Assembly (NCBI GenBank): GCA_020351875.1
Contig: CP070671.1
Span: 515,203 to 579,202, forward strand
DNA length: 64,000 nucleotides
From: Chromatiales bacterium
GTDB taxonomy: Bacteria > Pseudomonadota > Gammaproteobacteria > Steroidobacterales > GCA-2729495
Direction of reading: 5' to 3'
The position numbers were made by a program, and so were the translations under genes. Shown here in pieces: positions 29,717-34,482 of the stretch (within the stretch, counting starts at the first letter, position 1; each line of letters begins with the position of its first letter). Under the pieces are notes generated by a model. The model ran no database searches. It was not told the origin of the DNA and saw nothing but the letters and a program-made list of their open reading frames with translations.

Positions 29717-29776
29717 CGGACGTGGTGCCGGGCTGACGGCGCACAAAACAACGAAACACATCGGGGAGTGATCGCG

Positions 29777-30637
29777 ATGGGGGGAAGTCTGTCCCGACGG
29801 GGATTCCTGGCGGGTGCGGTATCGCTGCTGGCCGCCGGCGAAGCCCTGCCGCGTATCGGTGGTGACCTGCCCGCCGGTGCACCCGATCTGAGCAAGCCTG
29901 CAGAAAACCTCGATGCGGTGCTGCGGGTGACCGGCAGCCTGGCGGAGGAGGACGTGCCGTGGTGGTACGATGGCACCATCTTTGGCATCGTCGGCGAACA
30001 ACAGCCGCGCCCGCTCGTGAAGTTCGAGGGCATGGAACTCTACTGGGTCCGGCACCTGGACGACGGCGAGTATGAGCTGATCGGTAACACGGTGACCTTC
30101 TTCCGCGACGTGGAAACGGGGAAGATGATCGATACCTTCGAGAACCCCTACACCGGCAAAAACAACACCGTGACACCGGCGGTGCAGGGCGGTGGTCCCG
30201 GCCGCGGCTTCAACTACTCGGTGCGCGGCATTCGCCCGACCCCCTTCATGGAGCAGATGCCGGAATGGCCGCTGGTCCTGGACTGGAGCTTTGCCCGCGA
30301 CATGGTCTGGCTGCACAACCAGACGCAGTATCCGCCCGGCATGCCGCCGCCGCGAGCCCAGCGGCAGACCATGTTCGTGCCCCTGGCCCAGTTCAGCGAC
30401 CGGAAGATCAAGAACCTGCCGACGGTATTCAGCTCCACGGTGTTTATGCCCTGGCTGAAGTGGATGGACATGGGCAATCTGCCCGGGCACGTGATCTGGC
30501 ACGCATCGGGCGCGAAGCTCGAATCCATGGACCAGTTGCCGACCGAGTACCGTCGCCGTGCGGAGATGGAATTTCCCCAGTACATGACCGCAAACCCCGA
30601 AGCCCGGGAGAAGTGGATGAAACCCACCTATGACTGA
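29777..30637 (+). CDS. DUF1838 protein with Tat-like signal
   Basis: This DUF1838 protein starts with SRRGFLAGAVSLLAAG, a probable twin-arginine export signal, so it is likely folded before export to the periplasm. The mature part contains VPWWYDGTIFGIV, LYWVRHLDDGEYELIGN and FENPYTGKNNTV, and it ends in AREKWMKPTYD, typical of the family. DUF1838 has no assigned function known to me. The ATG at 29777 follows GGGGAG; a GTG nine bases earlier is possible. A paralogue follows 72 bases later. Confidence 0.82.
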   Translation: MGGSLSRRGFLAGAVSLLAAGEALPRIGGDLPAGAPDLSKPAENLDAVLRVTGSLAEEDVPWWYDGTIFGIVGEQQPRPLVKFEGMELYWVRHLDDGEYELIGNTVTFFRDVETGKMIDTFENPYTGKNNTVTPAVQGGGPGRGFNYSVRGIRPTPFMEQMPEWPLVLDWSFARDMVWLHNQTQYPPGMPPPRAQRQTMFVPLAQFSDRKIKNLPTVFSSTVFMPWLKWMDMGNLPGHVIWHASGAKLESMDQLPTEYRRRAEMEFPQYMTANPEAREKWMKPTYD

Positions 30638-30709
30638 CTGGTTGCCCGACGCGTCCGGTTCCGCGCGCATCGGAGGCCAACTGGACAAACACACCCGGAG
30701 GAGTCCGAG

Positions 30710-31753
30710 ATGCTGAATTCCACGCTGCTGAATGCGATGGCCTCGCGCCGCGATGCGCTGAAGATGTTCACGATGGGCGGGGCGGCTGCTGCCATGCCTG
30801 CGCTGACGGCCTGCGCCCAGGACAGCGGCGCGCCGGCCACCAGCGCGCCGGCGGCGCCACCGGCCGCCGCACCCGCAACGCCATGTGCCGCCGCGCGCGA
30901 CAACGTAGAGCTGACGATCAATTTCCAGGACCCCGCGCAGAACCTGCGCAGTTTCATCAAGGTGCTGGGCAATCTCGACCCCAGCGTCGAAACCATGGGC
31001 TGGTTCGGCGGCGATCTCTTTGCGGTCACGAGCCCGGACAAGCCGCTGCAGAAAATGTTCGGCGTAGAGGGGATGGGCGTGCTGCGCGTGGAGCCCCAGG
31101 AAGACGGCAGTTACCGTTTGTTCAACCGGGAATGCGCGTTCTACAAGCACCCGTTCACCGGCCAGTACATCGATACCTGGCAGAACCCGTTCACCGGCGA
31201 AGAGGTGCAGGTGTCACCGATACACAACATGGTGGTGAATGCTGAGGTCGCGCCGGTGTTCAAGATGGATTTCGACGGTGAAGTGCAGGAAATGCCCTTC
31301 ACACCGCCCTGGTGGGTGCAGGAGAAGATCAACACGGCCATGAGCATGTTCGAGGTGCACGTGGTCGCACCGAACCCGATGACCGTGGAGGAGTGGCCGC
31401 GCGAATCGGCAGGTCCGATGAACCGGATCAGCGAGATGTTCCACCGCAGCGTGCGGCTCAGCGAATTGCAGGACGAGAACACCACGAGTGCCGACTACGA
31501 AGGCGTCTGGACGCGGGTCGGGCCCTGGCTGCCCTGGATGCTGCAGGGCCAGGCCGAGGGCCACTTGCTGTATCGCACCTTCATGACCCGTCCCGGCACG
31601 ATTGACCGGATGCCCGACCAGCTGCTGCAGCAGGTGGCCGACAAGCTGGGCGAAGAGTATTTCGTCGCACCGCCCCCGGAGACCTGGGGCCAGCAGAACG
31701 ATTCGAGCTTTAGCGTCTACATGGAGGAGAACGAGCCGGCGCCGATGCCCTAG
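30710..31753 (+). CDS. DUF1838 paralogue, Tat-type, Ala/Pro linker
   Basis: A second DUF1838 protein, diverged from the first. It has a twin-arginine-like start (SRRDALKMFTMGG) ending in a TAC context that could be lipidated, followed by an Ala/Pro-rich linker of about 30 residues. The core shows YKHPFTGQYIDTWQNPFTGE, parallel to the FENPYTGK block of its neighbour, and later QAEGHLLYRTF. It is the last gene of the cluster and is followed after 17 bases by a strong terminator. Function is unknown. Confidence 0.8.
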   Translation: MLNSTLLNAMASRRDALKMFTMGGAAAAMPALTACAQDSGAPATSAPAAPPAAAPATPCAAARDNVELTINFQDPAQNLRSFIKVLGNLDPSVETMGWFGGDLFAVTSPDKPLQKMFGVEGMGVLRVEPQEDGSYRLFNRECAFYKHPFTGQYIDTWQNPFTGEEVQVSPIHNMVVNAEVAPVFKMDFDGEVQEMPFTPPWWVQEKINTAMSMFEVHVVAPNPMTVEEWPRESAGPMNRISEMFHRSVRLSELQDENTTSADYEGVWTRVGPWLPWMLQGQAEGHLLYRTFMTRPGTIDRMPDQLLQQVADKLGEEYFVAPPPETWGQQNDSSFSVYMEENEPAPMP

Positions 31754-31770
31754 CGCGGTCTGGTCCGGAA

Positions 31771-31816
31771 AGCAGCACGCCTCGCGGTGGTCGCTCCGCG
31801 AGGCGTGCTGCTTTTT
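31771..31816 (+). terminator. Strong rho-independent terminator
   Basis: AGCAGCACGCCTCGCGG (31771-31787) pairs perfectly over 17 bases with 31796-31812 around an eight-base loop, followed by TTTTT. It ends the DUF1838 cluster. Confidence 0.93.
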
Positions 31817-31872
31817 GATTCGGCGGTATTGCCCTGACTGGTTGTGCCCCGTGACGGGCCTCCGAAGGATCG

Positions 31873-31926
31873 GCGGCTGACAACCCGCGCCCGATGACGC
31901 ATTTGGTTTCGCGAGCTGCCAGCCGC
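31873..31926 (+). repeat. Hairpin copy A (type 1 arms)
   Basis: Left arm GCGGCTGACAACCCGCG and right arm CGCGAGCTGCCAGCCGC pair over 17 positions with a few wobbles or mismatches. It is preceded by GGATC, as is copy D. Confidence 0.88.
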
Positions 31927-31986
31927 TTACCTGTGTGGAAACCGAAAATCTTCCCCATTTACGGTTTCCATTCTGCTTAAGGCGCT

Positions 31987-32036
31987 GACCGGCAACCCGC
32001 GCCCGATGACGCATTTGGTTTCGCGAGTGGCCGGCC
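31987..32036 (+). repeat. Hairpin copy B (type 2 arms)
   Basis: Same core as copy A, but the outer stem is CCGGC (31989-31993) with GCCGG (32030-32034), a different but still complementary pair. A spacer hairpin at 31936-31970 (TGGAAACCG/CGGTTTCCA) lies between copies A and B. Confidence 0.88.
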
Positions 32037-32103
32037 ATTGCCTTACCCTTGGAGGTCGGTCCCGGGATGGGGCCGATTCCATGCAGCTGATGATGATGCG
32101 ATT

Positions 32104-32150
32104 TGCAGACTGCTCGCCCAGTCTCGTCATCGCCACGCGGTTTTCGGCCT
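32104..32150 (-). repeat. Possible decayed inverted copy X
   Basis: CTCGC, CGTCATCG (32125-32132) and CGCGG occur in the order expected for the reverse complement of the repeat. The position is about midway in the 225-bp gap, where a copy at 112-bp spacing would fall. The match is partial and could be chance. Confidence 0.3.
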
Positions 32151-32209
32151 TCTCCCTGTACTTATTCGTGTCTTTGCCCGATTTCTGTCCTCTGCGCTTT
32201 CGGAAAATT

Positions 32210-32264
32210 GCGGCCGACAACCCGCGCCCGATGACGCATTTTGGTTTCGCGAGCTGCCAGCCGC
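32210..32264 (+). repeat. Hairpin copy C (type 1 arms)
   Basis: Left arm GCGGCCGACAACCCGCG, right arm CGCGAGCTGCCAGCCGC. It is followed at once by the small palindrome TTCCCCTGGGGGAA. The corresponding bases after copy F read TTCTCCGTGGGAGA, which can also pair. Confidence 0.88.
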
Positions 32265-32316
32265 TTTCCCCTGGGGGAACCTTGTTTCTAATTGTTCTGG
32301 GCTTACCCGAGGATCG

Positions 32317-32371
32317 GCGGCTGACAACCCGCGCCCGATGACGCATTTTGGTTTCGCGAGCTGCCAGCCGC
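32317..32371 (+). repeat. Hairpin copy D (type 1 arms)
   Basis: Arms are identical to copy A, and the loop is one T longer (CATTTTGG rather than CATTTGG). The upstream GGATC is also shared with copy A. It starts the second 444-bp unit. Confidence 0.88.
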
Positions 32372-32432
32372 GTACCTCTTGGGAAATCGTGACTCTAGTC
32401 AGTCACGTTCTCCGTTCCCGGCAAAGCCTGTA

Positions 32433-32478
32433 CCGGCGACCCGCGCCCGATGACGCATTTGGTTTCGCGAGTGGCCGG
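32433..32478 (+). repeat. Hairpin copy E (type 2 arms)
   Basis: CCGGC/GCCGG outer stem, as in copy B exactly 444 bp earlier. The D-E spacer holds its own hairpin, CGTGACT/AGTCACG at 32388-32407. Confidence 0.88.
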
Positions 32479-32540
32479 ATGCTGTGCCCTGGAAGCCTGG
32501 TTCTGACTGCTTCACGACAACACGAATTGACAATGAGGGC

Positions 32541-32587
32541 GGGCAGCTTTGCCCGGCTACGGTCAGGTCGCGGTGTCGTTCAGCGGT
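32541..32587 (-). repeat. Possible decayed inverted copy Y
   Basis: GGCAGCTT, GGTCA, TCGCGG and a TGTC-TTCAGC tail resemble a worn reverse-complement copy, placed in the second 225-bp gap like X in the first. Weak evidence. Confidence 0.25.
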
Positions 32588-32655
32588 TCTCCTTTATTCG
32601 TTTGTCTTATGCGTTGCAGTTTTCGTCGTTGCTTACAGATCTGTGGTAGATGGCA

Positions 32656-32706
32656 GACCGACAGACCGCGCCCGATGACGCTTTTTGGTGTCGCGATCTG
32701 TCAGTC
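32656..32706 (+). repeat. Hairpin copy F, compensated arms, overlaps gene end
   Basis: Arms GACCGACAGACCGCG and CGCGATCTGTCAGTC pair over 15 positions, with two wobbles and no mismatch. Both arms differ from the other copies in a matching way (GACAGA with TCTGTC). The right arm contains the stop codon and last codon of the minus-strand ribbon-helix-helix gene. Confidence 0.85.
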
Positions 32707-33189
32707 GCCTTTCTCCGTGGGAGATCTGTAGATGTATTTGTCGTAAAAATAGGTGCGCAGCGTTTCCGGTACGTCGGAGTGATCCACACCCTTTTTCTTT
32801 AGTTCTCTCAATTTCGCGTGCACTTTCGTCTCGTGCAGGCCAGACATAGACAGCAGCACGAGATCTTCCTGTTCCACCTGCTCTGCCGACTGTTCCTCTT
32901 CGCCATTCAGGATTCGATCCAGCCGCGTGACGTCCAGGTCGAAGTAGCTGGCGAGTTCCGCGCCGTATTCCACAAACACCGGAATCAGGCTGCAACCGCT
33001 TGCATTGGGTTCGTGCAGCGGCGCGAGCCGGTTCAGCATGCTGCGAACCGCATAGCGCATGACTGAGGCCTCGGTTGCTCCCAGGCGCTTTGCGATTTCC
33101 CGCAACTTGACGTGTTCCGCCTCCGTGAGGCGCATCGAAAAGGTCTTGGTTCTGCTTTCGCTCACCACGGCGCCTGAAGTGGGTTTCAT
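32701..33189 (-). CDS. Ribbon-helix-helix (CopG/Arc-like) DNA-binding protein
   Basis: A protein of about 162 aa. The N-terminal stretch RTKTFSMRLTEAEHVKLREIAKRLGATEASVMRYAVRSML (residues about 12-50) has the strand-helix-helix pattern of the CopG/MetJ family. The remaining 110 residues are acidic and then Lys-rich (AKLRELKKKGVD) and match no family I know. The ATG at 33189 is preferred over a TTG two codons upstream. Transcription runs toward the repeat array, and the stop codon lies inside hairpin F, so the transcript would contain the array's minus strand. Autoregulation through the upstream inverted repeat is likely but inferred. Confidence 0.72.
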   Translation of the reverse strand: MKPTSGAVVSESRTKTFSMRLTEAEHVKLREIAKRLGATEASVMRYAVRSMLNRLAPLHEPNASGCSLIPVFVEYGAELASYFDLDVTRLDRILNGEEEQSAEQVEQEDLVLLSMSGLHETKVHAKLRELKKKGVDHSDVPETLRTYFYDKYIYRSPTEKGD

Positions 33190-33490
33190 GCTCAAACGGC
33201 ATCGGCAAATGGCTTATTCATCAGTTTAATAGGTTAAATGTATGTAAAAATCATTGCAATACCAATACGTTAATACTACGTATAGGCTACAAACAAAGCA
33301 CAAACCTGATACAAAGCGGTGAATTGCGCGGTTTTCCTGCCTTGGTTCCTCACCAGTCCGGAGGGTCTTATGTTGAATCGCGGCGCCTGGTTAGCCGTCC
33401 CGGCCCGCAGATTTCGGGTTGAATCGCTGGCCTGGATGCGCCGCGGCACGGGAGGCTGCGTGCTAGACTCCGCGCCGTGTTGGCCCCCGG
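33190..33490. other. AT-rich regulatory gap
   Basis: No gene can be supported. The left part (about 33200-33310) is AT-rich and should hold the promoter of the ribbon-helix-helix gene. The right part returns to normal GC and leads into the 2Fe-2S protein gene. An 87-codon open frame at 33319-33582 overlaps the real gene and looks spurious. Confidence 0.5.
33265..33283. promoter_or_regulatory. Inverted repeat, candidate operator
   Basis: ATACGT and ACGTAT flank a seven-base spacer in the AT-rich region upstream of the ribbon-helix-helix gene. Proteins of this family often bind such short inverted repeats next to their own genes. The assignment is by position only. Confidence 0.35.
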
Positions 33491-34003
33491 ATGCGTCCTG
33501 TGATTCGTTTGACCGTCAATGGCACTGCGATCGAAACGATGGTCCCGGCAGACATGCCGTTGCTATGGGTCCTTCGGGATGAGCTGGGCCTGACGGGTGC
33601 GAAGTACGGCTGCGGCATCGGGCAGTGCGGCGCTTGCACCGTGCACATCGATGGCCGCGCCGTGCGCAGCTGCGTGGTGCCGGTATCGACCGTCGCCGAT
33701 CGCAGCGTCACCACTATCGAAGGTCTGTCCGCCATCCCCGGGTTACACCCGGCGCAGCGCGCGTGGATTGACGAACAGGTGCCCCAGTGCGGTTACTGCC
33801 AGCCGGGCATGATCATGGCAACGGCGGCACTGATCAGTGAAAATCCCGACCCCACGGACGCTGACATCGATCGTGCCGTGACCAATATCTGCCGTTGTGG
33901 CACCTATCCGCGAATCCGTCGCGCCATTCACCTGGCCGCGCGGCTGTCGGCGGACGGGCAGCCACAATCGGCGAGTCCTGCTACAGAGGAGAATGACCGA
34001 TGA
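33491..34003 (+). CDS. 2Fe-2S subunit of a molybdenum hydroxylase (IorA-like)
   Basis: Small electron-transfer subunit of the xanthine dehydrogenase family, most like isoquinoline 1-oxidoreductase alpha. The plant-type cluster uses Cys41, Cys46, Cys49 and Cys61 ([10 protein letters not shown]). The second cluster uses Cys100, Cys103, Cys134 and Cys136 ([16 protein letters not shown]). The expected large Moco-binding subunit does not follow. Instead the stop overlaps, as ATGA, the start of a cytochrome c. The partner may be encoded elsewhere, or has been lost. Confidence 0.9.
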
Positions 34004-34482
34004 CGCACTTTCGCACTGCGGCCCTGCTGGTGCCGGCAGCCCTGTTTTTGCTGGCCGCCTGCGCCGAAGATTCGTCAACCCCGGCGTCCCCGGAAGCGGG
34101 CAGTGCGCCGGCGGCCGCGGCTGGCGGCGCGGATGAAGGCGATAACCTGGCAACCCTCCTGGCCCAGGCCGACGTGAAGCGCGGTCAGACCCTGTTCCTG
34201 CAGTGCCGTGCCTGCCACAGCCTGGAGGCGGGCGAGCCCCACAAGGTGGGCCCGAACCTGCACGGCATGTTCGGTCGCCAGGCCGGGATTGCGCCGGGTT
34301 TCGACTACTCCCCGGCGCTGCAGGAAGCCGACGTCGTCTGGACGCCGGAGGCGCTCGATGAATGGCTGGAGCGCCCCAGCGAATACCTGCCTGGCAACCG
34401 GATGGTCTTCATCGGCGTGAAGCAGCCGGCGGACCGCGCGAACCTGATCGCCTACCTGCAGCAGGCCACCGCAGCGGAGTAG
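34000..34482 (+). CDS. Lipoprotein cytochrome c
   Basis: A class I-like c-type cytochrome of 160 aa. A signal peptide ends in the lipobox LLAAC (Cys21), followed by an Ala/Pro-rich linker. The haem site CRACH is at residues 69-73, with [15 protein letters not shown] after it and a likely Met ligand in GNRMVFIGV. It would be anchored on the periplasmic side and could accept electrons from a molybdenum hydroxylase. It overlaps the 2Fe-2S gene and is convergent with dgkA. Confidence 0.9.

Follow-up and report, generated by a model that had tools for sequence, protein, structure and literature searches.

The window analysed here is a 64,000-nucleotide stretch of a gammaproteobacterial genome (G000; 3.49 Mb, one contig), in which an array of six long hairpins lies directly 3' of a gene for a ribbon-helix-helix (RHH)-like protein of 164 aa (32701–33195, minus strand; the start is probably the ATG at 33189). 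Exact copies of CCGCGCCCGATGACGC occur six times in the window, starting at 31885, 31997, 32222, 32329, 32441 and 32666, at spacings of 112, 225, 107, 112 and 225. A search of the 64 kb allowing up to two mismatches returned the same six copies only (shuffled sequences: mean 0.46, maximum 3), confirming the number and spacings given by the first-pass annotation. Around every one of the six cores there is a long hairpin, with the core as part of its loop. All are on the minus strand: hairpin 1 (31874–31925) has a 16-bp stem and, in the sense of the RHH-like gene (RHH sense), a loop with UGCGUCAUCGGG; hairpins 2 to 5 lie at 31986–32037, 32211–32263, 32318–32370 and 32430–32481; and hairpin 6 (32655–32707), nearest the RHH-like gene, has a loop starting with AGCGUCAUCGGG. 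The region had been described as lacking supportable genes, which is true of the array proper, but the RHH-like gene abuts it and the stop codon (32701–32703) lies within the 5' arm of hairpin 6, in the RHH sense. No sigma-70 consensus promoter was found at 31700–33520. Two tandem DUF1838 genes (29768–31753) converge on the array from the other side, with no PEP-CTERM gene there, and a 19-bp perfect inverted repeat between them and the array (31769–31814) is a possible terminator for an array transcript; the terminator caller gave no call. Small hairpins, e.g., TTCTCCAAAGAGA, stand ahead of several of the large ones in the RHH sense (31936–31970 in the window; also at loci L056, L057 and L059) and are possibly processing signals.

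The first-pass annotation also presented the six hairpins as two exact 444-bp units. Each of the first three copies does have a counterpart 444 bp away among the last three, but the sequence of the halves is not exact: ungapped identity at the 444-bp offset is 52%, and a comparison block by block (37 nt each) gives at best 0.89 and 0.97, in hairpin blocks, and only 0.27–0.38 in 6 of the 12, several of the spacer blocks being unrelated. Over 70 nt, hairpin 3 has an identity of 0.87 to hairpin 4 and only 0.73 to hairpin 6. An old duplication is nevertheless possible, since the gapped identity of the halves (338 of 479 columns, 0.71) exceeds the maximum for 200 random pairs (0.65).

The protein encoded beside the array is probably a ribbon-helix-helix DNA-binding protein. 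This assignment is made at the level of the fold, because Pfam gave sub-threshold matches only (NikA-like) and because Foldseek matches of the predicted model (pLDDT 77) to Arc, CopG and NikA are partial (E above 1, probability up to 0.89). Among 99 genomes, homologues were found in G000, G001, G002 and G004 (63–69% identity to the window protein), with a distant one in G074. In other taxa, homologues lie, as judged by eye, beside exopolysaccharide genes (19 homologue loci overall); the neighbours at L063 match export and chain-length models of the XrtA system below cut-offs, and the gene next to the RHH relative at L069 encodes a VPLPA-CTERM protein scoring above cut-off. No hairpin array was found at 16 such loci of other taxa. 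The relatives at L063 to L078 belong to an uncharacterised RHH-like family of 150–200 aa from other gammaproteobacteria, with a conserved C-terminal part.

Copies in related genomes had been named by the first-pass annotation as a check on its reading, and the array is present in all five genomes of the genus examined (g1; G000–G004), with 3 to 6 hairpins per genome and 20 in total. The same annotation had counted freely varying spacings against itself, and the spacings do differ among the congeners (128 and 116 in G001; 111, 112 and 200 in G002; 200 and 201 in G003; 186, 81 and 194 in G004). These 20 hairpins were used to build a covariance model; run on 40 genomes of the family, it recovered all 20, each on the RHH strand, and added no further strong one. 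Weak matches were to the opposite strand of the same hairpins, to a seventh site in G000 (0.003) and to two genomes of genus g4 (G034, 6.6e-5; G039, 0.004); the g4 matches do not resemble the array and were rejected as members. Among 396 genomes drawn evenly from the order, under filters stricter than in the family scan, only the five g1 genomes had a match at 1e-4. A plasmid search gave no match; in viral contigs a 17-mer of the loop had no match, and a 14-mer matched at least 120 stretches, which is the chance level. In G002 and G004 the cytochrome c gene, the RHH gene and the hairpins are followed by a VPLPA-CTERM gene, and G003 has the same order without the RHH gene; these three array-adjacent genes score 26.5 (G002), 34.8 (G004) and 20.5 bits (G003) with TIGR03370, for a cut-off of 25.35. 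The contig of G001 ends at the array. In all four genomes with the RHH-like gene, its stop (GD*) falls within the 5' arm of the first hairpin; G003, which is 87% complete, has three hairpins and no RHH match. The array of G004 is separated from a DUF1838-like gene by a PEP-CTERM gene and a response regulator.

Covariation of the stems, together with a wobble bias towards the RHH-sense strand, makes the array look like RNA. In the alignment of 20 hairpins from five genomes, 94.7% of cells are paired and 13 of 16 pairs show double changes; none of 500 shuffles reached the alignment on any measure, and sliding it by 1–3 columns reduced pairing to 28–44%. The covariation whose absence the first-pass annotation had counted against itself is present, and its option of a structured non-coding RNA in tandem gains support from these double changes and from wobble pairs that favour one strand. 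Pair types summed by hand gave 38 G-U against 4 A-C on the RHH-sense strand, the strand on which the structure had been derived, and a strand-neutral helix finder gave a wobble count of 37 against 11 for the same strand (p=1e-4). In that finder, 19 of 21 sites (the 20 hairpins and a cytochrome c start) lay above the 95% control, and the RHH-sense strand folds more stably than its opposite at 17 of 21 sites (the 20 hairpins and the seventh G000 site). The pair and strand counts are not independent, because the hairpins are related, and the invariance of the loop is partly a matter of selection, because the hairpins were collected through their core. At gathering thresholds, Rfam found one tRNA only in the window; under lenient settings, six related loci and eleven leader or g6 loci gave weak sub-threshold matches to unrelated families.

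What links the array to other genes is its loop. UGCGUCAUCGGG is the exact antisense of CCGAUGACGCA, a motif found upstream of many VPLPA-CTERM genes. Each g1 genome has 8–20 copies of CCGATGACGCA, arrays included, and 0–1 copies of the same pattern read backwards. Outside the array, G000 has 15 copies, eight of them before an open reading frame with a PEP-CTERM-like end; the remainder include a cytochrome c start, the 3' region of yeiH and sites without a PEP-CTERM-like frame. We scored 80 of 84 VPLPA-CTERM matches in the genus (E of 0.01 or less, with many falling short of the curated cut-off; of the four dropped, three had no start codon before the contig end), treating both strands alike over upstream stretches of 154–1176 nt, which may include coding sequence. 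The motif is present with at most one mismatch upstream of 32 of these 80 genes: 20 have it exactly and 12 with a single mismatch. In the reverse orientation the count is 4 of 80, all of them exact; 48 genes have no core within one mismatch. Three of the four reverse cases are the array-adjacent PEP-CTERM genes, at which no forward core was found even with two mismatches allowed; the remaining gene carries a further core in the opposite orientation. From two mismatches on, both strands are at background (12 sense and 15 reverse). In a smaller set, the core was present within one mismatch at 9 of 21 PEP-CTERM loci (9/30 without a frame found).

The one-mismatch forms are C2>T (3), C1>T (3), C8>T (1), A11>G (1), A11>T (2) and A4>T (2). 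Eight of the 12 are therefore C>T or A>G changes that keep a G-U pair, and four (A4>T, A11>T) lose a pair. With 7 of 33 possible substitutions keeping the pair, the binomial chance of at least 8 in 12 is near 0.001; for transitions only, 8 of 8 seen against 7 of 11 possible has a chance of 0.03. Both chances are hand arithmetic, and paralogues are not independent. The calculated loop-leader duplexes have energies of -21 to -24 kcal/mol, and the loop itself is predicted to be partly folded (mean unpaired probability of 0.60 over 10 nt).

In genera g4, g8 and g9, none of 28 VPLPA-CTERM genes (16, 6 and 6, respectively, from the 30 best-scoring of 105 matches; two were dropped for no start and a short upstream stretch) has a forward core within one mismatch and one has a reverse core; no alternative core was seen to be shared by their leaders, and the pattern counts of 0–7 per genome, mostly 2–5, are near background. 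The core was also considered as a dispersed repeat or uptake sequence, and this was rejected: when k-mers of predicted intergenic DNA were ranked by over-representation in 464 kb of G000 (the window plus 400 kb picked without regard to the core), it did not come out near the top, and the dispersed copies track PEP-CTERM genes. The cytochrome c gene of the window begins with CCGATGACGCA (33997–34007), its ATG inside the core. This start codon, at 34000, was rejected as the single target of the array and the match is probably due to chance, because the corresponding genes of G001, G002 and G004 start differently. The dispersed sites were likewise rejected as strong hairpins. At 61 of 79 of them the antisense strand gave the more stable fold, but this test is biased because the antisense core is rich in G and T; a first helix finder was non-discriminating (1410 of about 1420 random sites passed), and with a stricter one only 7 of 41 and 4 of 29 sites lay above the 95% control, a weak signal. 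One protein downstream of a core copy (L309, C1:1817839 region of G000) contains masked letters (X) that hide the nature of its C terminus.

The 16-mer core occurs seven times in G000, six of them in the array. The seventh (L007, 1420–1560; C1:1431742 region) is in the loop of a hairpin with a shorter stem, between genes that by eye are glutamate dehydrogenase-like and yeiH-like. It lies 3' of the yeiH-like gene and in its sense, with another hairpin and a strong terminator after it. This hairpin could be a sponge RNA derived from a 3' UTR and carrying the target sequence.

The position of the core was examined at 80 sites with flanks from genera g1 and g6, not all of which have a PEP-CTERM gene. 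Hexamers of the -10-like form TA..[AT]T peak 21–25 nt upstream of the core, where 16 of 80 sites have one; no other 5-nt bin holds more than 6. Matches to TTGACA-17-TATAAT with up to three mismatches occur at 16 of 80 sites in the sense orientation and 5 in the antisense, and nine of the 16 end 16–18 nt before the core. Given this spacing, the core is probably located near the 5' end of the mRNA, at about +10 to +25 of the leader. At 16 sites with a PEP-CTERM frame starting with ATG, the core ends 17–190 nt before that codon. Sigma-54 sites were not enriched at the 80 core sites, matches being alike on both strands. Intrinsic terminators that begin with the ACGC[A/G] of the core were found at 7 of 91 sites, compared with 7 of 10,680 random anchors, and six of the seven are upstream of the scored VPLPA-CTERM genes.

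A second antisense element is found in genus g6. Its four genomes have 24, 10, 9 and 7 copies of the core, 14 of the g6 sites inspected being before a PEP-CTERM-like frame, and they have no RHH match and no array match by the covariance model. All four do have a conserved element of 60–66 nt (L425–L428 and L439; 91–100% identity to the query), with a second copy at 87% identity in G016. Its 5' end is the antisense 12-mer ATGCGTCATCGGGACC, or, in G009, the 11 letters CACGCGTCATCGGGACC. At the four loci read, which exclude the second G016 copy, the element begins 6 nt after a promoter-like TAAATT or TAATAT, itself preceded at a distance of 17 nt by TTGACT or TTGATA. A gene starting with MRSYDL follows, whose G009 copy is a MerR_1 protein, and in both loci that reach far enough a PEP-CTERM-like gene comes after MerR (one such gene scores 18.3 bits in Pfam, for a cut-off of 20.7). 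In the g1 genomes the element is absent, the only match being one of 19 nt at a core site of G001. The element may be a small RNA, or else serve as the MerR leader. Both antisense elements share their locus with a gene for a predicted DNA-binding regulator (RHH or MerR), and where the flank is readable a PEP-CTERM gene is beside the element at 3 of 4 arrays and 2 of 2 g6 loci. The co-occurrence in g1 and g6 may be one event, because both genera may share one origin.

On balance we favour, with moderate confidence, the reading that the array specifies tandem regulatory RNAs in the RHH sense, which would pair in trans with PEP-CTERM leaders and set the expression of the regulon. The RHH-like gene and the array would share one transcript; each stable stem would display the same loop, antisense to C[C/U]GAUGACGC[A/G] in the leaders of exosortase-sorted VPLPA/PEP-CTERM genes; and the array RNAs would bind these leaders by base pairing, either intact or after processing. 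Transcription, pairing in the cell, the direction of control and any role of the RHH-like protein are what we infer, and the computed support consists of the hairpins, their covariation and strand bias, the place beside the RHH-like gene, the leader motif and its orientation, the promoter-like spacing and the cross-genus co-occurrence. Weighing against the reading are the 48 genes lacking a core, the terminator at only 7 of 91 sites, the partly folded loop, the weak hairpins at dispersed sites, the four core variants that lose a pair, the array-adjacent genes with no forward core, the G003 array with no RHH match and the negative search for a sigma-70 consensus promoter near the array. As to mechanism, at those leaders whose core doubles as the 5' arm of a terminator, pairing with UGCGUCAUCGG would occupy this arm, block the terminator and turn the gene on. 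That the whole regulon is controlled by such an antitermination switch, with dedicated antisense RNAs of two architectures in two genera releasing terminators at the leader core, is a tentative proposal that we think could be right but would not expect to be.

The hairpins might instead act as DNA. The core could be an operator placed immediately after PEP-CTERM promoters, in which case the array would be an operator cluster, serving autoregulation or titration of the RHH-like protein or another regulator; a position near +10 to +20 suits a repressor, the RHH-like gene adjoins the array in four of five genomes, and its relatives elsewhere are beside exopolysaccharide or XrtA-type genes. Yet g6 has the core before PEP-CTERM genes and no RHH match, the 16 RHH loci of other taxa have no hairpin array, an operator has no need of 16-bp stems that covary and whose wobble pairs lie mostly on one strand, and in two genera the targets carry the core and the regulator loci its complement, each in the sense of the transcript. 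We consider this explanation unlikely, and the protein-binding array that the first-pass annotation had offered as an option is less likely than an RNA. Mobile palindromic repeats, another of its options (REP/BIME-like elements), would account for inverted repeats in non-coding DNA whose copy number varies by species. However, each genome has one array in one syntenic place, the covariance model adding a single weak G000 site to one long-stem array per genome; the loop is the conserved part, and the dispersed cores track PEP-CTERM genes, which makes such an origin extremely improbable.

Two further explanations keep the array as RNA and remove the pairing with leaders. Several identical tandem loops, in 3–6 copies depending on the species, are what would be expected of a CsrB-type sponge that binds a protein or a core-bearing RNA, and the G000 hairpin with a strong terminator 3' of the yeiH-like gene could be such a bound RNA. 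We found no protein candidate, however, and the leaders carry the complement of the loop rather than the loop, so that one protein would not read both alike; a sponge seems to us quite unlikely. It is very unlikely that the hairpins act only in cis, as a stabilising 3'-UTR structure of the RHH-like mRNA or as the leader of the PEP-CTERM gene that follows. This would fit the RHH stop codon inside the first hairpin in four genomes and the VPLPA-CTERM gene after the array in G002, G003 and G004, but G000 has no PEP-CTERM gene at that place and G003 no RHH match, and stem strength alone leaves the conserved loop and its complement in the leaders unexplained.

If the proposal of trans-acting array RNAs is true, one antisense 12-mer in two RNA architectures would offer a clean system for two-sided mutation tests. 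The array and the leader motif suggest an RNA switch for a surface-protein family in uncultured gammaproteobacteria. To our knowledge, control of PEP-CTERM/exosortase proteins is known mainly through a predicted sigma-54/PrsK-PrsR system, and we know of no RNA-level control of the regulon, which would be new. Among the matches listed in searches of the open-licence literature, none treats RNA control of a PEP-CTERM regulon by its title, and none for the 10-mer core is related by title.

The array was compared with several known systems. CsrB-type sponge RNAs present many identical loops on one RNA and bind CsrA; the array is like them in its loops and unlike them in that complementary leaders exist. 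Integron attC sites have conserved ends, a variable loop and cassette genes between them, whereas in the array the loop is conserved, the stem ends vary and the spacers, of less than 180 nt, have no genes. CRISPR arrays consist of near-identical repeats with uniform short spacers; here, spacings range from 107 to 225 and stems differ. In type III toxin-antitoxin systems, RNA repeats precede an endoribonuclease toxin gene, and the neighbour of the array is RHH-like and 5' of it. Trans-acting small RNAs are expected to be antisense to a set of mRNA leaders, as is found here (32/80 versus 4/80 in reverse). Cuckoo RNAs have loops that resemble the anti-Shine-Dalgarno sequence, unlike the array loop, which corresponds to a single leader motif in a single gene family; nor does a DUF1127 gene adjoin the array, whose neighbour is RHH-like. 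The PEP-CTERM box described by Haft in 2006, a 17-nt motif with TTTACA at its end, lying about 63 nt ahead of a sigma-54 site and described together with PrsK/PrsR (PMC1569441), is like the core in being shared upstream of many PEP-CTERM genes in one genome; the core differs from the box as given there in its sequence, its sigma-70-like promoters and its apparent place inside the transcript, and exact TTTACA is not enriched at the 80 core sites (2 sense, 3 antisense). Small RNAs that choose in trans between termination and read-through, as covered in a review of such control (PMC6582626), are what the array RNAs are proposed to be, with the difference that ours is a proposal from sequence and that the antisense is a loop array beside an RHH-like gene. 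The nearest known layout, by analogy, is that of the ccaF1-CcsR1-4 operon of Rhodobacter sphaeroides (cuckoo RNAs, CIN1 locus), in which, as at the array, a protein gene is followed by several homologous small RNAs in tandem (PMC10253847). As described for that operon, the protein is an RNA-binding DUF1127 protein, the setting is alphaproteobacterial, and co-transcription and RNase E processing have been shown, whereas the array has an RHH-like neighbour and is known from its sequence.
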